Source of the DNA: an uncultured Verrucomicrobia subdivision 3 bacterium
GTDB taxonomy: Bacteria > Verrucomicrobiota > Verrucomicrobiia > Limisphaerales > UBA8199
Direction: 5' to 3'
DNA length: 46,863 nt
NCBI GenBank assembly: GCA_903913865.1
Contig: CAIWMU010000078.1
Location: 1 to 46,863 of the forward strand
Positions 25,576 through 36,589 of this stretch are shown here, piece by piece (within the stretch, counting starts at the first letter, position 1; every line of letters starts with the position of its first letter). Made by a program: the position numbers and the translations under genes. A model generated the notes under the pieces. That model was not told the origin of the DNA and did not search any database. It saw only the letters and a program-made list of their open reading frames with translations.

Positions 25576-26034
25576 GCGCCAATCCTATTACGCCATCATT
25601 GGCGCCGGGGCAAGTCCCGAAAAAAGGGGTCAGTCCTCACTTTTGACAGTTGATGAGATCGTCCGTCCCACCCGGGAATGGCGGGAGGCCGAGAGCGGGA
25701 TCGTGCATAAGGGTCAAAATCATGGCCGTGGCCTTTAACCCGGGCTATAATATTGCAGGTATGAGGAGGTGAAAAGATCAGAACGGTTTGACGGGGGATG
25801 GCCCGGGAACAGGGGGGCAAATACTTGTTTGTTCAAGGCAGGCCAAAAAATGCTCAGCAAATGGCAATTCATGTGAAGTCTTCCGGGCAGGTTCCGGTAT
25901 CTTATGCGGAGACGTGGCGATCCCGGCCCTAGGTGGCCGGGGTGCTGTGTTTTAAGAACAACGATGAGCGATGGCTCCACATTTTATTTAGTGAAACCTG
26001 CCCGGCGGTATTCAGCCGTGGGGAAGCCCTGCAC
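25576..26034. promoter_or_regulatory. Divergent intergenic region between fabG and nuoH
   Basis: There is no convincing gene in these 459 bp; the short frames are overlapping and lack family features. A perfect TATAAT stands at 25746-25751 on the plus strand, without a good -35 at normal distance, and an aggaggtga string at 25764-25772 follows without a useful start codon. Near the fabG side, aaaaaggggtcagtcctcacttttgaca (25621-25647 region) resembles short repeats linked to REP-associated tyrosine transposases. The region must contain promoters for both flanking operons. Confidence 0.4.
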
Positions 26035-27036
26035 ATGAGCGTTCCGGAACCGTTTCGATTGATTTTGTTTGTGGCGGGCCTGATGGGGTTCGTCGGGTTC
26101 AACGCCGCCTACCTGGTCTGGGTGGAGCGCAAAGGCGCGGGCCGGTTCCAGCGGCGGCCGGGTCCCACCGAGGCCGGTTGGGCCGGGTTGCTGCAGCCGA
26201 TCGCGGATGCGGCGAAGCTTCTTTCCAAGCAGTTGATCGTTCCTGCCGGGGTGGACAGGACCCTTTTCCGGGCCGCGCCGTTGATGGTGATGGCCCCGGC
26301 GATGATCGGTCTGGCGGTGATTCCGTTCAGTGAGACGCTGGCGGCGAGGAATATCAATGTCGGGCTGCTGATGATTTTTGCGTTTGGCTCCATCAACGTG
26401 ATGGCGGTGATGCTCGGTGGATGGGCCTCCCGGAACAAGTATGCGATCATTTCCGCTGCGCGTGTGGTTTCACAGAACGTGGCATATGAGATTCCGATGC
26501 TGCTGGTCGTGGTGACGATGATCATGATGACCGGGACGATGAATCTGCAGGAGATCGTCCAGCAGCAGGCCGGCCCGATCTGGCACTGGAACATCTTCCG
26601 GGTGTGGATCAATCCTCTGGCACCCATTACCTTCTTGATTTTCTACATCTGCATGCTCGCGGAGACGAACCGTGCCCCGTTTGACATGGCGGAGGCCGAG
26701 AGCGAACTGGTGGCCGGGGCCTACACGGAATATTCGGGGATGGGTTTCGGGGTGTTTTTCATGGCGGAATATGCGAACATCCTGCTGGGCTGCAGCGTGG
26801 CCACGGTTCTGTTCCTGGGTGGTTGGCAGAGCCCGTTTGGCATCTGGTCAGGGGTGCTGTGGTTCCTGGCAAAGCTCTATTTTCTGGTGTTTTCAGTGGT
26901 GTGGATTCGTTGGACTTTTCCCCGGACACAGTTTTACGGGTTGCTGAACCTTTCCTGGAAGATCCTGATCCCTGTTTCTTTGTTTACCTTCATCCTTTCA
27001 AGCGCGATGATTAAGCTTTTAGGAAACAGGTTATGA
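26035..27036 (+). CDS. nuoH: NADH-quinone oxidoreductase subunit H
   Basis: A 333-residue inner-membrane protein with about eight helices, the quinone-site subunit that links the peripheral and membrane arms of complex I. Motifs include VWVERKGAGRFQRRPGPTEA near the first helix, EIPMLLVVV, and LAETNRAPFDMAEAESELVA with the conserved acidic residues. I start at the ATG 26035 (MSVPEPFRL), since the added N-terminus of the longer frame is not family-like. It is the first gene of the operon: nuoA-G are not upstream. The stop overlaps nuoI by 4 bp. Confidence 0.95.
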   Translation: MSVPEPFRLILFVAGLMGFVGFNAAYLVWVERKGAGRFQRRPGPTEAGWAGLLQPIADAAKLLSKQLIVPAGVDRTLFRAAPLMVMAPAMIGLAVIPFSETLAARNINVGLLMIFAFGSINVMAVMLGGWASRNKYAIISAARVVSQNVAYEIPMLLVVVTMIMMTGTMNLQEIVQQQAGPIWHWNIFRVWINPLAPITFLIFYICMLAETNRAPFDMAEAESELVAGAYTEYSGMGFGVFFMAEYANILLGCSVATVLFLGGWQSPFGIWSGVLWFLAKLYFLVFSVVWIRWTFPRTQFYGLLNLSWKILIPVSLFTFILSSAMIKLLGNRL

Positions 27037-27620
27037 GCAACGCTATTAAAGAAGTTTACGACGGTTTCAAGAGTCTGGTGACCGGGATGCGGATCACCAT
27101 AGGCCAGTTTTTCAAGCCGACGATCACGGTCCAGTATCCGCATGAGTCGCTGAAGATGCCGACCCGGTTCCGGGGGCATATTGAACTCGTGACGGATCCG
27201 GAGACCGGAAAGCCCCTCTGTTTTGCCTGCAAACTGTGCGAGCGGGCCTGCCCGAGCGATTGCATCACGGTGGAAGGTGCGAAGCTGGAGGGAGACAAGA
27301 AGAAATCGGTCACCGATTACAAGCTGGATTTCACGAAGTGCAGCCTGTGCGGCTCCTGCGTGGAGGCCTGCAGGGACGGGGCGATCCGGTACTCGCGAGA
27401 CTACAATCTGGCGAGCACCAGCAAGGAAGATTTCGTGATGGACCTCTTCAAGCGGCTTGAGCGGGAGCGCGAGGCAGTGGAAGGACCGACCGGTTCGGCA
27501 ATCCCCGCCGCCCAGAAGGCTCCCGAAGCCCCGGTCGCGGCAGTTCCCGCGCCCACCCCGGCGGCGGCGGCTCCAGCCCCGGCACCCGCCGCCCAGCCAG
27601 CAACACCCCAGGACAAATGA
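27033..27620 (+). CDS. nuoI: NADH-quinone oxidoreductase subunit I (two 4Fe-4S), with Pro/Ala tail
   Basis: A 195-residue iron-sulfur protein that passes electrons to the N2 cluster near quinone. The first cluster is CFACKLCERACP (Cys63, 66, 69, 73); the second is CSLCGSCVEACRD (Cys103, 106, 109, 113), where the usual Pro after the last Cys is Arg. After residue ~145 there is a low-complexity Ala/Pro tail of about 45 residues that classical NuoI lacks. The ATG overlaps the nuoH stop (ATGA) and its own stop overlaps nuoJ. Confidence 0.95.
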   Translation: MSNAIKEVYDGFKSLVTGMRITIGQFFKPTITVQYPHESLKMPTRFRGHIELVTDPETGKPLCFACKLCERACPSDCITVEGAKLEGDKKKSVTDYKLDFTKCSLCGSCVEACRDGAIRYSRDYNLASTSKEDFVMDLFKRLEREREAVEGPTGSAIPAAQKAPEAPVAAVPAPTPAAAAPAPAPAAQPATPQDK

Positions 27621-28150
27621 GCGAATTTCCCGCAGCCGGTCTCATCCTTAACATCGTTTTCGTGCTGGCGCTGGCCACCACCCTTGTGGGGGCGGTGCTG
27701 GCGGTTGTCACCACCCGCATCATCCGGAGCGTCTGCGGTCTGGCGATTTGCTGTGTCGGCCTGGCCGAGTTGTATTATTTCCTGCACAGCCCGTTTCTGG
27801 CGTTGATGGAGATCCTGATTTACGTCGGCGCGGTGTGCGTCACCATCGTGTTTGCGGTGATGCTTGCTGAACCGGAGGAGGCTGTGGTGGAGAAGAAGCG
27901 CGGGGTTGATTTTGCCTGGAGCGGCCTGGCGATGGTGGTTTGTGGTGCAATTTTCTTTGGCCTTTGGAGGCTGGGCTCCCAGCAGGACTGGACGGCCCTG
28001 ACCCCCCGGACCAATGACGGATCGATCCAGTCGATCGGCAAGGCGCTTCTCACGACCTACAGTCTTCCCTTTGAGATGATTTCCCTGGCGTTGCTGGTGG
28101 CCATTCTGGGTGCTCTGGCCGTTGCGCGGACCGGGAGGGACAAAGCATGA
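27617..28150 (+). CDS. nuoJ: NADH-quinone oxidoreductase subunit J
   Basis: A 177-residue membrane protein with five hydrophobic helices. The third-helix region LMEILIYVGAVCVTIVFAVM contains the conserved pi-bulge/Tyr element that takes part in coupling in complex I. It has 4-bp overlaps with both nuoI and nuoK, showing tight translational coupling. Confidence 0.94.
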   Translation: MSEFPAAGLILNIVFVLALATTLVGAVLAVVTTRIIRSVCGLAICCVGLAELYYFLHSPFLALMEILIYVGAVCVTIVFAVMLAEPEEAVVEKKRGVDFAWSGLAMVVCGAIFFGLWRLGSQQDWTALTPRTNDGSIQSIGKALLTTYSLPFEMISLALLVAILGALAVARTGRDKA

Positions 28151-28473
28151 ATCCGACCCTACTTTACGACAAACCCGAACTTTACATCATCACCGCAGCA
28201 CTACTGCTGGCCCTCGGTGTGTTCGGCCTCGTGCGTCGGCGCACGCTGATTGGCATGCTGATTGCGGGGGAACTCATTTTCTCCGCCGCCGCGCTTAATT
28301 TTATGGCGTTCAACCGGTTCCGGGCCGCGGATCAGAGCACGGGCCAGATTTTCGTCCTGTTCATCATGGGTCTGGCCGCTGCGGAAGTGGCGATTGCGCT
28401 GAGCATTGTGATCGCGGTTTACCGCAACTACCGCTCCGTGAAGACCCGGGAGCTTTCGGATTTGAATGGTTGA
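28147..28473 (+). CDS. nuoK: NADH-quinone oxidoreductase subunit K
   Basis: A 108-residue three-helix membrane protein. The conserved Glu residues of the proton path are present in LIGMLIAGELIFSAAALNFM and GLAAAEVAIALSIVIAVYRN. It links the quinone module to the antiporter-like subunits. Normal NuoK length. It overlaps the next gene by 8 bp if that gene starts at 28466. Confidence 0.95.
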   Translation: MNPTLLYDKPELYIITAALLLALGVFGLVRRRTLIGMLIAGELIFSAAALNFMAFNRFRAADQSTGQIFVLFIMGLAAAEVAIALSIVIAVYRNYRSVKTRELSDLNG

Positions 28474-29956
28474 CCCCATGGAAACGACAAACGACATACG
28501 CCTGCTTTTGGCAGTTCTGGCCCCCCTGATCGGAGCCGGTCTGGTGATGGCGACTGGAAAGAAGCCAAACGTGCGGGAGGCCTGCTCTGCGCTGGCGGCC
28601 CTGACCCTGTTTGGGATCATCGCCTCGCTGGTGCCGGATGTCCTTGCGGGCAAGCGGCTGGTTTGCACCGTCTTCAACCTGCTACCGAACCTCAGCTTCA
28701 CCCTGAGGGCGGATGCGCTTTCGATGGTGTTTGCGCTGGCGGCCTCGTTCCTCTGGGTTCTCACCGTGTTTTATTCCGCGGGTTACATGCGGGGTTTGCA
28801 CGAGCATGACCAGACCCGTTTCAACACCTGTTTTGCTCTTGCCCTGTTCGGGGCGATCGGCACCGCCCTTTCTGACAATCTATTGACGATGTATCTCTTC
28901 TACGAGATCGTCTCCGTCTGCACGTACCCGCTGGTGGCGCACCATCAGGATGAGGAGAGCTATGCCGGGGCCCAGAAGTACATGGTTTACCTGACGACCA
29001 CGGCGAAGGGGCTGATCCTTCCGGCCATGGTATTGATCTATGTGCTGAGCGGCACACTGGATTTCGCAACAAACGTCCACACCGGCATCATCCCGGCTGC
29101 GGCGAATGATTGCGTGGTCACGATTCTCTACGCCTGCTGCATCCTGGGATTTGCCAAGAACGGCATCATGCCCCTGCACAGCTGGCTGCCGAGTGCGATG
29201 GTGGCCCCCACACCTGTCAGCGCCCTGCTGCACGCGGTCGCCGTCGTGAAAGTCGGCGTGTTTTCAACCGTCCGGGTGATGCTTTATGTGTTCGGCGTGG
29301 ATCGGATGGACGCCCTGAACGTGGGGATGCCGACCGCCTATTTTGTTTCCATCACGATTGTGGTGGCCTCCATCATTGCGTTGAGCAAGGACAACCTGAA
29401 AGCGCGGCTGGCCTATTCCACAGTCAGCCAGCTCTCCTATGTGATTCTGGGTGTGGCGCTGCTCAAGCCGAGCGGGGTTGAGGGAGGGTTGATTCACATT
29501 GCCAACCATGCGTTCTCCAAGATCACGTTGTTCTTCTGCGCCGGGGCGATCTATGTGGCCACCCACAAGAAGAACATTTCCGAGATGCACGGCCTGGGTC
29601 GGGTGATGCCCATCACGTTCGGCGCGTTCGCGCTGGCATCGCTGAGCATGATCGGTGCGCCGCCGGTGGGCGGGTTTGTGACCAAGTGGTATCTGCTGAA
29701 CGGGGCGATGGATGCCGGATCGCTCGGCATTCTCCTGGTGCTGCTGGCGAGCACACTGCTCAACACGGCCTACTTTGCGCCGGTCGTTTACCATGGGTTT
29801 TTCGGAAAGCCGAATCCCTCGGATGCGGGGCATCATTACCATGAGGCGCCGCCCGCGATGGTGATTCCGCTGACGGTGACCGCTGTGATCTCGGTGCTGA
29901 TCGGCATTTACCCCAATTTCTTCATGCGCTTCGTGCAGGCGATTTACCCAACATGA
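28466..29956 (+). CDS. MrpD-like antiporter-type proton-pumping subunit (first)
   Basis: A 496-residue membrane protein of the NuoL/M/N-MrpD (Proton_antipo_M) family with about 14 helices. Key residues of the proton channel are present: the Glu in MYLFYEIVSVCTYPLV, the helix-7 Lys in FAKNGIMPLHSWLPSAMVAP and a Lys in HAVAVVKVGVF. It resembles MrpD-like subunits more than a classical NuoL, lacking a long C-terminal lateral helix. A downstream ATG at 28478 is an alternative start. It takes the place where nuoL is expected and would form one of the distal pumps. Stop overlaps the next gene by 4 bp. Confidence 0.88.
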   Translation: MVDPMETTNDIRLLLAVLAPLIGAGLVMATGKKPNVREACSALAALTLFGIIASLVPDVLAGKRLVCTVFNLLPNLSFTLRADALSMVFALAASFLWVLTVFYSAGYMRGLHEHDQTRFNTCFALALFGAIGTALSDNLLTMYLFYEIVSVCTYPLVAHHQDEESYAGAQKYMVYLTTTAKGLILPAMVLIYVLSGTLDFATNVHTGIIPAAANDCVVTILYACCILGFAKNGIMPLHSWLPSAMVAPTPVSALLHAVAVVKVGVFSTVRVMLYVFGVDRMDALNVGMPTAYFVSITIVVASIIALSKDNLKARLAYSTVSQLSYVILGVALLKPSGVEGGLIHIANHAFSKITLFFCAGAIYVATHKKNISEMHGLGRVMPITFGAFALASLSMIGAPPVGGFVTKWYLLNGAMDAGSLGILLVLLASTLLNTAYFAPVVYHGFFGKPNPSDAGHHYHEAPPAMVIPLTVTAVISVLIGIYPNFFMRFVQAIYPT

Positions 29957-30213
29957 AACTGGTGCGACTCATAGAATTTTTGCAGCAGCGGATGAAGCTG
30001 CTGATCAAGCTCAGCTACGTGGTGCTGGCGCTGCTGGTGGTGGCGGATGCCCTGCCATTCATCGTTCACAAGGAGCACGCCCACACCGCCCCCGAGCACA
30101 TCCCCGGTTTCTGGTCCGCTTACGGTTTTGTGGCCTGCGTCCTGATTATCATTGTTTCAAAATGGTTCGGCCACGCGGGGATCATGAAACGGGAGAATTT
30201 CTACGATGAATAG
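29953..30213 (+). CDS. Small two-helix membrane protein within the complex-I cluster
   Basis: An 86-residue protein with two hydrophobic helices (LLIKLSYVVLALLVVADALP and YGFVACVLIIIVSKWFGHAG) separated by a His-rich loop (HKEHAHTAPEH). It is not a classical Nuo subunit. It overlaps both neighbouring MrpD-like genes (4 and 8 bp), so it is very likely translated with them and may be an accessory part joining the two antiporter-like subunits. Confidence 0.8.
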   Translation: MKLVRLIEFLQQRMKLLIKLSYVVLALLVVADALPFIVHKEHAHTAPEHIPGFWSAYGFVACVLIIIVSKWFGHAGIMKRENFYDE

Positions 30214-32014
30214 CCCCTGGATCCATCCATCCCTGATCTTGATCGTCGGGGGGCTCCTGCTGCCCCTGATCCCCAAGGTCCTCAAGAAAGGCTACCTGCT
30301 GGGGGTGCCGATCCTTGTGTTTTTGTCCATCCTTGGCATGTCCAAGGGGGTTCATGGTCAGGTGCAGTTCCTGGACTGGACGCTGACGTTCGGCCGGGTG
30401 GACGCCCTGAGCAGCGTGTTCGGCTACATCATGTCCCTGATGTGCATCATCGGGACCCTTTACGGGCTGCACGTGAAGGAGGATGAGCAGCATATCGCCG
30501 CGTGGGTTTATGTGGCGGGCTCGATCGGGGCGATTTTTGCGGGGGATTTCATCACGCTCTTCCTGTTCTGGGAGATCATGGCGTTTTCATCCGTGTTCCT
30601 GATCTGGTTCCGGGGACGTCCGGAATCGATGGCAGCGGGCTACCGCTACCTGCTGGTGCACGTGGCGGGCGGGCTGGCGCTGCTGATCGGCATGGTTCTG
30701 CACTGCAAGAGTGTGGGCAGCTGGGAGTTTGGGCAGTTGGATGTGCATAATCCGACTCCAGCCGTGTGGCTGATCATGATCGGGTTCATCCTGAACGCCG
30801 CCGTGCCACCGCTGCATGCGTGGCTGCCGGATGCCTACGGCGAGGCTACTTTCAACGGTTCCGTGTTCATGTGCGCTTTCACCACCAAGACCGCTGTTTA
30901 CGCCCTGTGCCGGGGTTTGGCCGGGATGGAGATCCTGGTGCCGCTGGGCGTGATCATGGCCCTTTACGGTGTTGTGTATGCGGTGCTCGAGAACGACTGC
31001 CGCCGCCTGCTGGCCTACCACATCATCAGCCAGGTCGGTTACATGGTGGCGGGTGTCGGGTTGGGCACGGAAATGGCCATCAATGGTGCCTGCGCCCATG
31101 CCTTTGCGCACATCCTCTACAAGGGACTCCTGTTCATGGGTTGCGGCTCGGTTCTTTACATGACCGGCGAGAGCAAGTTCACGGAACTGGGCGGGCTGTG
31201 GCGGAAGATGCCCTACACGTTCCTGTTCACGCTGATCGGCGGTCTTTCCATCTCGGCCTTCCCGCTGTTCAGCGGATTTGTGAGCAAGTCGATGATCGTT
31301 GCGGCCGGGTTTGAGGATCACAAGCTCTGGGTCGGATTTCTCCTGATGCTGGCCTCGGCGGGAACCTTCCTGCACACCGGTTTGAAGGTGCCGTATTTCA
31401 TCTGGTTCGGCAAAAACAAGCCACGCCCCGAGGTGGAAGCCCGGGCCGGGGATCCGCCGTGGAACATGAATGTGGCGATGGCGGTTGCCGCGTTTCTCTG
31501 TATTTTCATCGGCAGCTACACCCCTTATCTCTACAAGATGCTGCCGTTTCCTGAAGTGGCTGAGGAATATTCGAAGGTGGTTTACGGGAGCTACCATGTG
31601 TCGGAGACCCTGCAGATCCTCCTCTTCACGGCGCTTGGATTCTTCCTGCTGCTGAAGAAGCTGACTCCGGAGCCGACTGTGAGCCTGGATCTGGACTGGT
31701 TTTACCGGATGGGCGGGAGGGCCTTTGGCCGCTTTGCACGCGGGCCGCTGCAGACGATGGACAATTTCGTCGGGGAGCTTTACCGGCTGGCCGGCACGGT
31801 GCCGCTGATGGTGTCCGCCCGGATTGCGGGAATTTTTGACAACAAGGTGATTGACGGGGCGGTGGATGGCGTGGCTTACGGTGTGGCCGCTGTCGGGCGC
31901 CGGTTGCGCGGCATGCAGCGTGGGCAGGTGCAGGAGAGCCTGGTGATCTCCTTTGCAGTGGCTGCCATTCTGATTATTGCCTTCCTGTTGTTCTCGAACG
32001 TCTTTACGCGATGA
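30206..32014 (+). CDS. Long MrpD-like antiporter-type subunit (second), helix-7 Lys replaced by Asn
   Basis: A 602-residue membrane protein of the NuoL/M/N-MrpD family. The helix-5 Glu (LFLFWEIMAF) and the helix-8 Lys (AFTTKTAVYAL) are present, but where NuoM/NuoN have Lys before the PxHxW motif (KxxxxPLHxWLPDA) this protein has Asn (LNAAVPPLHAWLPDAY). About 100 C-terminal residues beyond the core, beginning near DWFYRMGGRAFGRFARGP and ending in one more helix (LVISFAVAAILIIAFLLF), resemble the NuoL-type lateral extension. It is probably the most distal pump in the arm. It overlaps its neighbours by 8 and 4 bp. Confidence 0.88.
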   Translation: MNSPWIHPSLILIVGGLLLPLIPKVLKKGYLLGVPILVFLSILGMSKGVHGQVQFLDWTLTFGRVDALSSVFGYIMSLMCIIGTLYGLHVKEDEQHIAAWVYVAGSIGAIFAGDFITLFLFWEIMAFSSVFLIWFRGRPESMAAGYRYLLVHVAGGLALLIGMVLHCKSVGSWEFGQLDVHNPTPAVWLIMIGFILNAAVPPLHAWLPDAYGEATFNGSVFMCAFTTKTAVYALCRGLAGMEILVPLGVIMALYGVVYAVLENDCRRLLAYHIISQVGYMVAGVGLGTEMAINGACAHAFAHILYKGLLFMGCGSVLYMTGESKFTELGGLWRKMPYTFLFTLIGGLSISAFPLFSGFVSKSMIVAAGFEDHKLWVGFLLMLASAGTFLHTGLKVPYFIWFGKNKPRPEVEARAGDPPWNMNVAMAVAAFLCIFIGSYTPYLYKMLPFPEVAEEYSKVVYGSYHVSETLQILLFTALGFFLLLKKLTPEPTVSLDLDWFYRMGGRAFGRFARGPLQTMDNFVGELYRLAGTVPLMVSARIAGIFDNKVIDGAVDGVAYGVAAVGRRLRGMQRGQVQESLVISFAVAAILIIAFLLFSNVFTR

Positions 32015-33540
32015 CCACTCCCAGTTCAACCGGCTCCTGGCCGATCCTAAGCTTCCTGATTTTCAGCCCGCTTGCCGCGGCCGCTGTGGCCGCGTTCATC
32101 CGCGATGACCGCTGGGCGCGCTGGTGGGCGCTGGCCTTCACCACGGTGATCGCCGCCGTTTCACTAACGCTCTACACCGGTTTCAACACCGGAACGGCTG
32201 CCTTCCAGTTCACGGAGACGGCTAATTGGATTGCCGCGCTGAAAATTCAATATGCCATCGGGGTGGATGGGATAAGCCTGCTGCTGGTGCTCCTGACGAC
32301 CCTGATCATGCCTCTGTGCGTGCTGTGCTCCTGGAACTACATCCAGACACGGGTCAAGGAGTTCATGGTCTGCCTGCTGGTGATGGAGAGCGCGATGGTG
32401 GGTGTGTTCTGCGCACTGGATTTCGTGCTGTTTTTCGTGTTCTGGGAGGCGATGCTCATCCCGATGGCACTGTTGATCGGCATCTGGGGCGGCCCCAGGA
32501 AGATTTACGCATCCCTCAAGTTCTTCATCTACACCATGTCCGGCTCCGTGTTCCTGCTGGTGGCGTTGATCGCCCTGCGGCTGCAGGTCGGGTCGTTCTA
32601 CATCCCGGACATGATGGGCAAGCCCTACTCGCACGAGTTCCAGACCTGGGTGTTCCTGGCCTTCTTCATCAGCTTCGCGATCAAGGTGCCGATGTTCCCG
32701 TTCCATACCTGGCTGCCGGCAGCGCACGTTGAGGCCCCCACGGCGGGTAGCGTGATCCTGGCGAGCGTGCTCCTGAAGATGGGCACCTACGGCTTCCTCC
32801 GGTTTTCACTGCCGATCACCCCGTGGGCAGCTGCCTATTTCACACCGCTCGTCATGGGACTTTCGGTGGTGGCCATCACCTATGGCGGGTTGACGGCCCT
32901 GGGGCAGACCGATCTCAAGAAGCTCGTTGCTTATTCGAGTGTGGCGCACATGGGGTTTGCGACCCTTGGAATTTTTGCGATGAACACGATGGGGATTGAG
33001 GGGGCGATCATGGTGATGATCAACCACGGCGTGACCACGGGGGCGTTGTTCATCACGGTGGGAATCATTTACGAGCGGTTGCACAGCCGGGATCTGGGGC
33101 AGGCGGCGGGCATGGGCAAGCACATGCCGGTGCTGGCGGCCTTTGCGGGGGTCTTTTCCCTCTCCTCGCTGGCGTTCCCCGGAACGAACAGCTTCATCGG
33201 CGAGTTCATGGTGATGGCCGGTGGTTTTCAGTTTTCGCCTTTGATGATGGTGCTTGTGGCGCCGGGTGTGGTGCTGGCTGCGGCCTACATGCTGCGGATG
33301 CTGCAGAAGTTCGCCTACGGTTCCACAAAGAACCCTGACCACTCGAAGCTGAAGGATCTGGGCTTCCGCGAAGTCGCCACGCTGATGCCGTTGCTGATTT
33401 TTGTGTTCTGGATCGGGCTGCAACCGGAGCCGTTCACGCGTGTGATGAAGGCGAGTGTGGAGAATCTTCTCCAGCAGACCGCCCAGGCGCGGCCCCCCGC
33501 GGGAGTGGCGGTGGCGCAAATCCCTGTTGATTCGAAATAA
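32011..33540 (+). CDS. nuoM: NADH-quinone oxidoreductase subunit M
   Basis: A 509-residue antiporter-like membrane subunit. Typical NuoM features: VDGISLLLVLLTTLIMPLCV, the Glu in LFFVFWEAMLIPMALLIG, the helix-7 Lys in FAIKVPMFPFHTWLPAAHVE, and EAPTAGSVILASVLLKMGTY. It pumps protons (or Na+) in the membrane arm. ATGA overlap with the preceding MrpD-like gene; 2 bp before nuoN. Confidence 0.95.
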   Translation: MTTPSSTGSWPILSFLIFSPLAAAAVAAFIRDDRWARWWALAFTTVIAAVSLTLYTGFNTGTAAFQFTETANWIAALKIQYAIGVDGISLLLVLLTTLIMPLCVLCSWNYIQTRVKEFMVCLLVMESAMVGVFCALDFVLFFVFWEAMLIPMALLIGIWGGPRKIYASLKFFIYTMSGSVFLLVALIALRLQVGSFYIPDMMGKPYSHEFQTWVFLAFFISFAIKVPMFPFHTWLPAAHVEAPTAGSVILASVLLKMGTYGFLRFSLPITPWAAAYFTPLVMGLSVVAITYGGLTALGQTDLKKLVAYSSVAHMGFATLGIFAMNTMGIEGAIMVMINHGVTTGALFITVGIIYERLHSRDLGQAAGMGKHMPVLAAFAGVFSLSSLAFPGTNSFIGEFMVMAGGFQFSPLMMVLVAPGVVLAAAYMLRMLQKFAYGSTKNPDHSKLKDLGFREVATLMPLLIFVFWIGLQPEPFTRVMKASVENLLQQTAQARPPAGVAVAQIPVDSK

Positions 33541-33542
33541 CG

Positions 33543-35060
33543 ATGCAATCTCTCATGGCATATCTGCCGGAACTGGTCCTGCTGGCCGGGGCGCTCGGTT
33601 TGTTCGCCGTCACCCTGGGTGAATCGCGGGGTGGTCTGGCGCGTCAGGTCGCACTGGCTACCGCCGCTGCAACCATTCTTGCTGCTCTTGCGGCCTTCGG
33701 TCAGGAGGCGACCCTGTTCAGCGGCGCCTACCGGGTGGATGCCTTCTCGCAGATGCTGAAGCTGGTGTTTTCCTGCGGCTTTTTGCTGGTTATCCTGCTG
33801 GGTGGATCCCTCCCGGACATCCGCGAGGAGGTCAAGCCGGAGTATTACCTGTTCCTCGCCCTCAGCGTGTTCGGATTGGTGAGTTTGGTCAGCTGTATTG
33901 AACTGATGTCCCTGGTGGTGGCGCTGGAGGTTTCCGCCTTCCCGCTCTATCTGATGATCCCGATGCGCCGGGAGCGGGCCGGGCAACGGAGCCAGATGGA
34001 GTCGGCCATCAAATACATGATGTTCGGTCTGGCCGCCAACGGTGTGATGTTCTTCGGCATGAGCCAGATTTTCGGCATCACCGGTTCGACATCCATCCCG
34101 GTGGTGATGGAGAAACTGAAGCCGATTGCCACATCCCCCCTGGCCGTCACCGGCCTGGCGCTGATGTTCTGCGGGATGTATTACAAGCTCGCGATTTTCC
34201 CCTTCCACTTCTGGACGCCCGATGTTTACCAGGGTGCCTCAAATGAAACCGCCGGGTTGATTGCCTCGCTGCCCAAGATCGGCGGCGTGGCGGTGCTCGT
34301 CCGGTTCGTCTCCCTGGGCACTCCGGACAACCGGGCCATTGCGATGCTGTTGGGGATTCTTGCCGTTGGTTCCATGTTCTACGGCAACCTGATCGCCCTG
34401 ATGCAGAAGGATTTCAAACGGTTGCTCGGCTTTTCGGGTATCGCCCACGCCGGGTATGCGTTGGTTGGCTTTGTGGCGATGGACCAGGCCGGCTTCGCCG
34501 CCGCCCTCTACTACATCATCGGTTACCTGCTGATGGTGATGGCCTGCTTTGTAGTGATCTGCCGGGTGTCCAAGGACGGTGTGAACATCTCCATTGACGA
34601 GTTCGCCGGGTTGCACAAGCGGTCCCCGCTGCTGGCGGTTACTTTGGCAGTTGGCGTTTTCGGGTTGGCAGGCATTCCGCCGTTTGTCGGGTTCATGGGT
34701 AAACTGGGCCTCCTTTCGGCCGCACTGGCCCGGGGGCACATGGCGCTGGTCATTATCGCCGTCATCAATTCTGCGATCGCAGTTTACTACTATCTCTCCG
34801 TTGTCCGGGAATCCTGGTTCCGTGATCCCGAGGGGCGTCCCGCCATTCAGGTGGATCTCCCCACGCGGGTCCTGTGCGGGGCCCTGATAGGGGGCATTCT
34901 GGCCCTTGGCATCCTGCCCGGGCGTGTGATCGACTCCCTTTCCTCCTCCATCGCAAAGACCACGGCCCCGCAGGCAGCTGTTGTGGTCCTCCCCGCTGCG
35001 GCGCATCTGGCAGCCACCTTTAATGCCCTCCCGCCGGTCTCCGGCCGGGGAACCCCTTGA
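33543..35060 (+). CDS. nuoN: NADH-quinone oxidoreductase subunit N
   Basis: A 505-residue antiporter-like membrane subunit next to NuoK in the complex. The helix-7 Lys is in MYYKLAIFPFHFWTPDVYQG and the following GASNETAGLIASLPKIGGVA is the usual NuoN signature. Its C-terminal helices and length fit the family. It is the last gene of the tightly packed nuo block; the next gene starts 80 bp downstream. Confidence 0.95.
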   Translation: MQSLMAYLPELVLLAGALGLFAVTLGESRGGLARQVALATAAATILAALAAFGQEATLFSGAYRVDAFSQMLKLVFSCGFLLVILLGGSLPDIREEVKPEYYLFLALSVFGLVSLVSCIELMSLVVALEVSAFPLYLMIPMRRERAGQRSQMESAIKYMMFGLAANGVMFFGMSQIFGITGSTSIPVVMEKLKPIATSPLAVTGLALMFCGMYYKLAIFPFHFWTPDVYQGASNETAGLIASLPKIGGVAVLVRFVSLGTPDNRAIAMLLGILAVGSMFYGNLIALMQKDFKRLLGFSGIAHAGYALVGFVAMDQAGFAAALYYIIGYLLMVMACFVVICRVSKDGVNISIDEFAGLHKRSPLLAVTLAVGVFGLAGIPPFVGFMGKLGLLSAALARGHMALVIIAVINSAIAVYYYLSVVRESWFRDPEGRPAIQVDLPTRVLCGALIGGILALGILPGRVIDSLSSSIAKTTAPQAAVVVLPAAAHLAATFNALPPVSGRGTP

Positions 35061-35140
35061 TCCGGGGCTAATGGAGTCAATGAAGATGGCTTGCGCGACG
35101 GGCTCAGTTGTGCGATAGGAAAGCGGTGACCCAGAGCCGC

Positions 35141-36589
35141 ATGAGCAATCCCGCTTCAGATCCAGCCAATGCCCGGTTGGCTTGGCGTGAGCAGGTCCGG
35201 CAGGAACCCCCAAAGCGGCCCGTCTCCGAGCGGGTCCATGACTTTTTCGAGATCCACGGCATCTTCGACGAGAAGACCGCCCGCGAGCAAGCCAGCCGTT
35301 GCATCCAGTGCCCCAACCCCAGTTGCGTCTCGGGCTGCCCCCTCTGCAATCCCATACCCCAGTGGATGCTGCTCACTGCTGAGGGTCGGTTTCTGGAGGC
35401 CGCTGCCGTCATGGGTTCTGCCACCAGCATGGCCGAGGTTTGCTCCCGTGTTTGCGCCGCCGATCACCACTGCGAGCACACCTGCATTCTGGATTCCATA
35501 TCCGAGCCTGTGGCCATAGCGGGCATTGAGCGTTTTCTTGCCGATTACTCCCTCCGTCATGGTCTGGTCGGCACCGCAACCGCCCCCCCAAATGGATACA
35601 AGGTGGCTGTTGTGGGGGCTGGTGCCGGTGGTCTGACCTGTGCCGAATTGCTGGCCCGGCGCGGCTGCGCGGTAACCATTTTTGATGAATCGCTCATTCC
35701 CGGCGGACTGCTCGTCAACGGGTTGCCCGCCTTCAATATCGCCAATTCAGTGGTGGAGCGCCGGGTGGATTTGATCCGGAAACTCGGGGTCCGGTTCCAA
35801 CTTGGAGTGGAGTTGGGCAGGGGCTTGAACCTTGCGGAGCTTGGGGCCGGTCACGATGCCATTTTTCTGGGAATGGATTCCCGCACCTCGCGCACGCTGG
35901 AAGTTCCCGGCGCGGGCCTCAGCGGGGTGGTGCAGGCCCTGCCGTTTCTGCTCCAGAAGCGGACCTCTGTGGCGCTCGACATTCCAGCCCCTGAAGTCGC
36001 CGGGAAGCGGGTGCTGGTCCTTGGGGCGGGGGAGAGCGCGGTGGATTGCCTCAGGGTGGCCATCCGTTGGGGTGCCCGGGAGGCGGTGGGGGTCTATCGC
36101 AGGGGTGAGCCGGACATGCCCTGCGGCAAGGCCAACTACCAGAGCGCCATTGAGGAGGGGGCCAGGTTTGTGTTCAACGCCATGCCGAAGGCCATTCTGG
36201 ATGATGGCGCCGGGGGCGTGCGCGGACTGCGTGCGGTTCGCACGGCACCGGAAGGGCAGGATGTCCGTGGCCGGAGCGGTTTTGTGGAGGTTCCCGGGCA
36301 GGAGTTTGATCTCGAGGCGGACCTGATTGTTCTGGCTCTGGGTTTTGATCCCAAGCCATGCCTGCTCTCAAGCGAGTTCAGCGCCTTGCAGGTCAACGCC
36401 TGGGGCGGGCTGGTTGTGGATGCGAACCACATGACCAGTATGGCTGGGGTGTTTGCTGGCGGGGACATCGTGCGAGGCCCCAGCGTCGTGTTGGAAACCG
36501 TCCGGGATGGCCGCAACGCGGCCGAAGGCATCCTGCGCTACCTGGCCGCCAGGGATGGGAACACCCGCGCAGGCGCCACCCCCGCCTGA
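35141..36589 (+). CDS. GltD-like NAD(P)H-dependent iron-sulfur flavoprotein
   Basis: A 482-residue protein of the glutamate synthase small-subunit family. The N-terminal Fe-S domain has Cys in RCIQCPNPSCVSGCPLCNP (about 53-71) and CSRVCAADHHCEHTC. The FAD site is VAVVGAGAGGLTCAELLARR (about 152-171); the NAD(P) site is VLVLGAGESAVDCLRVAIRW; the C-terminal FAD motif is GVFAGGDIVRGPSVVLETV. Such proteins move electrons from NAD(P)H in glutamate synthase, NfnB-type transhydrogenases and other complexes. No gltB is present here; the gene lies 80 bp after nuoN on the same strand. The ATG at 35141 is preferred over 35108. Confidence 0.85.
   Translation: MSNPASDPANARLAWREQVRQEPPKRPVSERVHDFFEIHGIFDEKTAREQASRCIQCPNPSCVSGCPLCNPIPQWMLLTAEGRFLEAAAVMGSATSMAEVCSRVCAADHHCEHTCILDSISEPVAIAGIERFLADYSLRHGLVGTATAPPNGYKVAVVGAGAGGLTCAELLARRGCAVTIFDESLIPGGLLVNGLPAFNIANSVVERRVDLIRKLGVRFQLGVELGRGLNLAELGAGHDAIFLGMDSRTSRTLEVPGAGLSGVVQALPFLLQKRTSVALDIPAPEVAGKRVLVLGAGESAVDCLRVAIRWGAREAVGVYRRGEPDMPCGKANYQSAIEEGARFVFNAMPKAILDDGAGGVRGLRAVRTAPEGQDVRGRSGFVEVPGQEFDLEADLIVLALGFDPKPCLLSSEFSALQVNAWGGLVVDANHMTSMAGVFAGGDIVRGPSVVLETVRDGRNAAEGILRYLAARDGNTRAGATPA

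Follow-up and report, generated by a model that had tools for sequence, protein, structure and literature searches.

A probable membrane arm of an EFG-less, green-type complex I with four antiporter-like subunits in a Verrucomicrobia subdivision 3 bacterium

In the green complex I of rhizobia (Degli Esposti & Martinez Romero 2016), as described in PMC9040806 and PMC7415380, two MrpD-like subunits replace NuoL, and according to the account in PMC7415380 this complex is upregulated in symbiosis. Another form is the 11-subunit complex I without NuoE, NuoF and NuoG (EFG-less) of Desulfitobacterium, for which the passages on it in PMC11238625 give the electron donor as unknown and propose ferredoxin. 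EFG-less Nuo clusters of Desulfobulbus and Desulfovibrio appear in PMC3608642 as A–D and H–K, and in Desulfurivibrio dismutans AMeS2 such a cluster (RS03515–03575) is reported in PMC12142623 to be strongly upregulated in sulfur disproportionation. Here we describe a nine-gene operon in a window of 46,863 nucleotides from an uncultured Verrucomicrobia subdivision 3 bacterium (GenBank assembly GCA_903913865.1, contig CAIWMU010000078.1, positions 1 to 46,863 of the forward strand); the window is this whole stretch. The product of this operon is probably the membrane arm of a green-type complex I that lacks EFG and has four antiporter-like subunits, a reading to which we assign a probability of roughly 75%. 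The green type as such is already known. The EFG-less form, in which two antiporter-like genes and a small gene between them (X1-small-X2, here called the cassette) take part, is a variant of it present in Verrucomicrobiota and Desulfobacterota-type bacteria.

The operon consists of nine tightly packed genes arranged head to tail on the plus strand (26035–35060):

26035..27036, plus strand: nuoH, quinone-site membrane subunit (NF004741, 323 bits, cut-off 305; PF00146, 364 bits)
27033..27620, plus strand: nuoI (TIGR01971, 117 bits, cut-off 113; two 4Fe-4S ferredoxin motifs by eye)
27617..28150, plus strand: nuoJ (PF00499, 111 bits, cut-off 33; under the NCBIfam cut-offs)
28147..28473, plus strand: nuoK (NF004320, 76.6 bits, cut-off 57)
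28466..29956, plus strand: X1, first MrpD-like antiporter-like subunit, 496 amino acids, without lateral helix (NF006236, 820 bits, cut-off 663)
29953..30213, plus strand: small membrane protein, 86 amino acids, two long predicted helices (14–33, 53–77), no family
30206..32014, plus strand: X2, second MrpD-like antiporter-like subunit, 602 amino acids (NF009310, 754 bits, cut-off 564)
32011..33540, plus strand: nuoM (TIGR01972, 600 bits, cut-off 264)
33543..35060, plus strand: nuoN (TIGR01770, 333 bits, cut-off 332.6)

Seven of the eight junctions between neighboring open reading frames (ORFs) are overlaps of 4 or 8 bases and the remaining one is a 2-base gap, an arrangement that looks like a single operon. 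For nuoH the ORF begins with GTG at 25933; the likely start of the gene is the in-frame ATG at 26035, which is also where the first-pass annotation of this DNA had placed it. That annotation had named nuoH–K, nuoM, nuoN, two MrpD-like subunits and a small membrane protein, and we recovered all nine genes on the plus strand at the positions it gave. The models matched by X1 and X2 are named “monovalent cation/H+ antiporter subunit D” and “Na+/H+ antiporter subunit D”, respectively. When the nine genes were searched with NCBIfam and Pfam profiles, neither NuoL nor any of NuoA–G was found among them, and there were no genes of the mrpB, mrpE or mrpG type; MrpC of the Mrp antiporter is missing from the operon likewise. 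The extra pump-like subunit suggested earlier is borne out for the genes, since four antiporter-like ones are present, two of them (X1 and X2) in the place of NuoL; their assembly into a single complex appears likely from the sequence. No Pfam or NCBIfam model matched the small protein. Its AlphaFold model has two long helices and a short one (predicted template modelling score, pTM, only 0.43); there was no convincing sequence match in the PDB (best E 0.076) and no Foldseek match to the model. NuoI of the window (27033–27620) carries a Pro/Ala-rich C-terminal tail.

The window is one contig (C78) of a draft genome of 6.27 Mb in 267 contigs, 95% complete. A search of this draft with PF00361, the antiporter fold, returned 14 rows representing 13 genes, all of them in four clusters: three genes on C57, four on C28 (where two rows are one ORF), four in the window operon and two on C151. 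None of the 13 is a spare NuoL for the window operon, and none belongs to an Mrp operon, as all fall in nuo or hydrogenase-like clusters. X1 and X2 therefore most likely belong to the complex I of the window. The C57 cluster is of canonical type, with B, D, F, H, L, M and N identified by family search and E, G and K by eye, these being the genes looked for there. On C28 (L016, 167–8997, minus strand; J and K by eye) lies another membrane arm, which is of the 2M type, has the order H-J-K-L-M-M-N and carries no nuoI between H and J. Its NuoL of 718 amino acids has a lateral-helix insert of 26 residues relative to the C57 NuoL, in agreement with the description of the 2M type given in PMC9040806. 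One draft genome thus holds three variants: a canonical-type complex, a 2M-type arm and the window-type arm. The fourth cluster, on C151 (L017, 2001–10024, minus strand), is hydrogenase-like and combines NuoB-, NuoD- and NuoH-like genes with two antiporter-like genes; an ORF that by eye resembles a SulP-like transporter adjoins it.

Two further contigs, C235 and C127, each hold a spare nuoABCD set, of which family search identified B and D and inspection by eye A and C. No nuoE, nuoF or nuoG was seen beside either set, on an 8.2-kb contig and an 18-kb stretch, respectively, and there was no NuoF match on either contig. The C127 set (L034, 5814–8700, plus strand) has no later nuo genes seen adjoining it. 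NuoD of C235 is 82, 84 and 86% identical to the NuoD encoded directly upstream of nuoH in three relatives and 69–77% identical to that of four more distant loci. For the C127 NuoD, the values are 40–42% against the three close relatives and 40–44% across all seven. On this match of C235 to the nuoH-adjacent NuoD of relatives, C235 most likely carries the missing quinone module of the window operon, while C127 is perhaps, by elimination, the partner of the 2M arm on C28. NuoC of C235 (L033, 1273–2097) has a long Pro/Ala-rich stretch ahead of its conserved domain. The draft contains six NuoF-type matches, on C57, C214, C23, C52, C250 and C265. The surroundings of the first two were read, one being the canonical C57 cluster and the other a NiFe-hydrogenase cluster on C214. 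The earlier statement “no nuoA-G” thus stands for the operon and falls for the genome, where nuoABCD is located on C235 and nuoEFG in the canonical-type cluster on C57. In answer to the question of another nuo operon, raised at the same time, there is this C57 cluster plus the 2M arm on C28.

We then compared the arrangement in relatives. The same order and nearer taxa contributed 58 genomes, of which 13 (the window's own included) carry an X2 of at least 67% identity and three more an X2 of 45–48%; in a phylum-wide sample 15 of 337 genomes, again with the window's own, exceeded the X2 family cut-off. Fifteen relative loci were fetched: 12 of green type (L067–L075, L077–L079), two with X1-small-X2 but no nuo genes (L076, L080) and a fragment (L081). 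Quinone-module genes are contiguous with HIJK-X1-small-X2-MN in eight of the 12 green-type loci (C and D in all eight, A in seven; B was not among the queries), and they are best matched by the C235 set. Three of the remaining green-type loci start at HIJK like the window and one is too short to judge.

A scan of named bacterial genomes gave at least 575 relatives, from which the best 80 loci were kept for counting. Judged by record title, Verrucomicrobiota and Desulfobulbales or other Deltaproteobacteria make up most of these, and one is a Marinimicrobia. The two sets overlap, as at least L084, L085, L099 and L112 duplicate L067, L068, L075 and L079. The cassette is kept with nuo genes in 74 of the 80 loci. 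Four show Mrp genes, and L122 and L145 are fragments without Mrp genes or M/N (L145 with NuoE/F-like matches after X2). NuoM or NuoN lies within the same locus in 72 loci; L102 and L150 carry A–K upstream and end after X2. Among the 57 loci complete from H to N, nuoD is upstream in 53, the exact order D H I J K X1 small X2 M N occurs in 50, and in 55 there is no E, F or G match within up to ~10 kb on each side of X2, the other two being L089 and L162. X1 and X2 adjoin in nearly every locus spanning both, with the small gene between them in nearly all (it was not detected in L154). Unlike the other loci, L110 and L111 have NuoM ahead of the cassette (H I J K M X1 small X2 N).

The cassette also occurs in Mrp antiporter operons. 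It lies downstream of mrpD in L080, L120, L123, L130 and L140, in the order E-G-A'-B-C-D-X1-small-X2, and L076 has likewise an Mrp-type setting, judged by its MrpC-like and MrpD-like neighbors. X1-small-X2 is common to these operons and the window operon; unlike the window they contain MrpB, C, D, E and G, and no NuoH, I, J, M or N stands beside the cassette. A group 3 Mrp locus with two antiporter-like genes after mrpD is described for Candidatus Nitrospira alkalitolerans in PMC7784846. In Desulfurivibrio AMeS2 both the complex-I and the Mrp setting are found in one genome. A second Mrp operon of this organism (L201, G393 C28, 1550–9933) encodes an MrpD-like protein, two X1-like proteins and a weakly X2-like one.

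In a phylogenetic tree X1 (16 rows) and X2 (16 rows) each form one clade with support 100, apart from two NuoL, and within both clades rows from Mrp and complex-I settings are intermixed; the window X2 is grouped with the X2 from Mrp operon L123 (support 85). This is a quick tree with supports from the Shimodaira–Hasegawa-like approximate likelihood ratio test (SH-aLRT) only and two long hydrogenase-like rows of unsure place, which supports the clades and not the kinship of X1 and X2 to NuoL, NuoM or NuoN. The phylogeny proposed earlier for the MrpD-like proteins thus yields clades of their own. Together with the adjoining position of X1 and X2 and a draft that shows no spare NuoL or Mrp operon, it gives no sign that one of the two is an ordinary NuoL and the other part of a separate complex. 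The two settings differ at the C-terminus of X2: a NuoL-like motif, D-G/A/W-x-V/L/I/T-D/N-G, is present in 66 of 71 complex-I X2, with near variants in the other five, and in none of six X2 with visible Mrp genes (row L200 in this count duplicates L130). X2 of L122 and L145 also lack it, but these were assigned to Mrp by likeness to L120 and hence are not independent. The difference holds within the single genome of Desulfurivibrio AMeS2. This indicates that the C-terminus of X2 follows the partner complex, and we read X2 as probably contacting its complex-I partners through the lateral helix.

An AlphaFold model of X2 was built from 53 sequences (mean predicted local distance difference test score, pLDDT, 87; pTM 0.81). 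It contains a NuoL-type C-terminal lateral helix of 73 residues (498–570, block pLDDT 57–82) followed by the last transmembrane (TM) helix. Compared with NuoL chains the model reaches Z ~44 over ~480–510 residues, and with MrpD Z 43.9 over 441, a tie with NuoL. X1 retains the TM5 Glu and the Lys residues of TM7, TM8 and TM12. X2 retains TM5 Glu123, TM8 Lys228 and TM12 Lys361, and has Asn197 in place of the TM7 lysine, at the site of E. coli NuoM K234. Of the 80 loci, 79 have Asn at this site of X2 and the other has Ser; all 71 X1 sequences that reach the site have Lys (three X1 fragments do not cover it); seven X2 and three X1 residues were assigned by eye after the search pattern had missed them. 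Asn is also found in the X2 read from the Mrp setting. All 53 aligned X2 sequences keep the Glu of TM5 and the Lys residues of TM8 and TM12. Loss of the TM7 lysine was considered as proof that X2 does not pump and rejected, since the C57 NuoM (L015, 5432–6955) and one C28 NuoM (L016, 1630–3153) lack the same lysine and have Leu instead.

Regarding electron input, one gene directly beside the operon deserves attention:

35138..36589 (ORF opens at 35108), plus strand: GltD-like FAD/NAD(P)H oxidoreductase with an N-terminal 4Fe-4S domain (PF14691 and PF07992)

Its product stays under the cut-off of every NCBIfam model among the best 25 of 50 listed. The gene stands beside the operon in the window and in five of the 12 green-type relative loci (L067, L069–L072), a count in which at least two non-carriers, L068 and L075, end near nuoN. 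It also does so in five of the best 80 public loci (L084, L090, L095, L116 and L143, of which L084 repeats L067). In L095 and L143 it precedes nuoA; elsewhere it follows nuoN. The GltD-like flavoprotein is a possible, unproven electron-input partner. On the other side, upstream of the operon, fabF/acpP/fabG-like genes (by eye) lie on the opposite strand. At usual membrane potentials, the energy of electron transfer from NADH to menaquinone would not suffice for five ions, whereas that of transfer from ferredoxin to menaquinone is about enough. Loss of the NADH module and gain of an extra subunit would therefore fit each other.

Several observations weigh against a complex with four working pumps or against parts of its proposed make-up. 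X2 is without the TM7 lysine, so four pumps do not follow from four antiporter-like subunits. The span between the last two TM helices of X2 has a median of 112 residues versus 102 in 14 canonical-type NuoL, about 10 more. The same span is 134 in the C28 2M NuoL, far above X2, and 113–119 (n = 4) in Mrp-setting X2, much like complex-I X2. In this comparison 13 NuoL from relatives were identified from their length and C-terminal motif alone, an E. coli value of 136 (a wrongly picked TM helix) was left unused, and one X2 value of 76 among the 71 is an artefact. Superposition of X2 on E. coli NuoL indicated ~25 extra residues from the helix start to the last TM helix (model 519–528 on E. coli 561–569, 594–595 on 612), the 612 pairing coming from alignments with a root-mean-square deviation near 14. 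A motif-anchored count gave 74 for both the window X2 and the 2M NuoL and 49, or 25 fewer, for the canonical NuoL of C57, the differences being taken by hand; the alternative anchor ELY, also counted by hand, gave no extension in X2. Since the X2 span is barely above that of canonical NuoL and alike in the Mrp setting, the length of the lateral helix is not proof of a four-in-row arm, and this argument was dropped (ELY anchor 0, TM span +10, Mrp-setting X2 alike). Furthermore, nuoABCD lies on a different contig from the window operon in the draft genome, which leaves their co-expression as an assumption, and the 5% by which the draft falls short of completeness may possibly hide a NuoL or an Mrp operon. 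The GltD-like gene adjoins the operon in only part of the Verrucomicrobiota. No conserved electron-donor gene was conspicuous among the flanking-gene clusters of the public loci (up to 7 kb on each side), the largest of which resemble, by eye, a LysR-type regulator and housekeeping genes.

Three other explanations have to be weighed against our reading of the operon. In the first, the cassette would encode an Mrp-like Na+/H+ antiporter of its own, present in the operon but not part of complex I, which would then have only NuoM and NuoN or borrow the canonical NuoL. The cassette does stand in Mrp operons, and the pairing of the L123 X2 with the window X2 points the same way. Against this, the draft has no antiporter-like gene of an Mrp operon, the nine genes include no mrpB/E/G type, nuo genes accompany the cassette in 74 of the best 80 public loci, and the X2 C-terminus is unlike between the two settings; we regard a separate antiporter as very unlikely. 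The first-pass annotation had thought of a changed ion-to-electron ratio; in a different alternative all four antiporter-like subunits are in the complex, with X2 as a structural end cap, and the ion ratio is that of ordinary complex I. The replacement of the TM7 lysine in every X2 examined, including those in Mrp operons, while X1 always keeps it, favors such an end cap. The invariant TM5 Glu, TM8 Lys and TM12 Lys speak against it, and the NuoM proteins with Leu at the TM7 site make the loss alone indecisive. We consider the end cap a serious possibility, though short of an even chance.

The complex could also use NADH after all, through NuoEFG borrowed from C57 or another NuoF-like gene. Six NuoF-type matches are available in the genome and the rhizobial green complex I has its own EFG. 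However, 55 of the 57 complete public loci have no E, F or G match in the stretches covered, and the two NuoF surroundings read belong to the canonical complex and to a NiFe-hydrogenase, which renders NADH use rather unlikely. A more far-reaching version of our preferred reading would see here a widespread, ferredoxin-driven, EFG-less complex I whose four antiporter-like subunits all pump, at ~5 ions per 2 electrons, together with a movable, NuoL-replacing cassette exchanged with Mrp, an X2 C-terminus remade for each complex, and GltD-like input in some Verrucomicrobiota. We put this forward as speculative and would sooner bet against the whole of it than for it.

The sequence data show the gene content of our preferred complex, its partner genes, its conservation as a unit and the kinship of the cassette with Mrp; how the subunits assemble, in which order they lie in the membrane, and which donor, ion and ratio apply can be proposed as follows. 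NuoABCD from C235 and NuoHIJKMN would form the quinone-reducing core, and X1, the small protein and X2 would jointly occupy the position that NuoL has in an ordinary complex. X2 would lie farthest out, its lateral helix extending back across X1 and NuoM. Electrons would enter at NuoI/NuoB from a donor of low potential, for which reduced ferredoxin is the likeliest candidate, perhaps with the GltD-like flavoprotein feeding the ferredoxin. Quinone would be reduced at NuoB/D/H and the energy released would drive ions through N, M, X1 and possibly X2. Two unsettled matters in bioenergetics are the number of ions per electron pair in complex I and the modular addition of subunits. A 13-gene form without EFG and with four antiporter-like subunits, which by record titles spans at least two phyla and also occurs in cultured sulfur bacteria, is a natural experiment on them. 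As the cassette occurs in both a redox-driven pump and an antiporter, once in the same genome, its role is testable by swaps, and the draft genome offers canonical-type, 2M-type and window-type arms side by side.

In the literature searched we found no earlier report of an EFG-less green-type operon in Verrucomicrobiota and no statement of an EFG-less operon with the MrpD pair; two key papers lay outside the search and we make no claim of absence from print. A known relative is the rhizobial green complex I, which on plasmids of Ensifer canadensis and Pararhizobium has the same order J K X1 small X2 M N as the window. Its X2 is ~50–54% and its X1 ~52–53% identical to the window proteins, all matches being below 60%, and NuoD of C235 is 45% identical to the Ensifer NuoD. 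The Ensifer/Pararhizobium operon continues with A B C D E F G after N, whereas in relatives of the window type ABCD lies upstream of H. Unlike in the window, rhizobial nuoI and nuoH are on the other strand beside a CBS-domain gene. The rhizobial complex also encodes its own NuoE, F and G, which the window type lacks among the operon genes, in the C235 surroundings and in 55 of 57 complete loci; we therefore class the window operon as a green-type variant and not as the rhizobial form. The idea of a hybrid with an Mrp-type module, already voiced in the first-pass annotation, fits well with a cassette shared with both Mrp operons and the rhizobial green complex I.

Further described systems differ in other ways. 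Complex_I_3 of Candidatus Manganitrophaceae also has two green-type MrpD-like subunits, but according to its description in PMC9040806 it has two NuoM, hence five antiporter-like subunits in all, and a 26-amino-acid insert in the X2 lateral helix; the window has one NuoM and an X2 of rhizobial length there. The 2M complex I (Chadwick et al. 2018, as presented in PMC9040806) shares with the window the number of four antiporter-like subunits, reached by adding a second NuoM and keeping a NuoL with a long lateral-helix insert, whereas the window has one NuoM and no NuoL. Canonical 14-subunit complex I has NuoL as third antiporter-like subunit and NuoEFG, neither of which is in the window operon. 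The EFG-less 11-subunit form nuoABCDHIJKLMN, as outlined in the sources cited above, is like the window type in having no NADH module; in place of its one NuoL the window type has X1-small-X2, making 13 genes. In the genome of Desulfurivibrio AMeS2 we read a cluster A B C D H I J K X1 small X2 M N, and the tags RS03515–03575 correspond to 13 genes if numbered in fives. From gene number and content we infer that this 13-gene cluster is the one reported in PMC12142623 to be upregulated in sulfur disproportionation.

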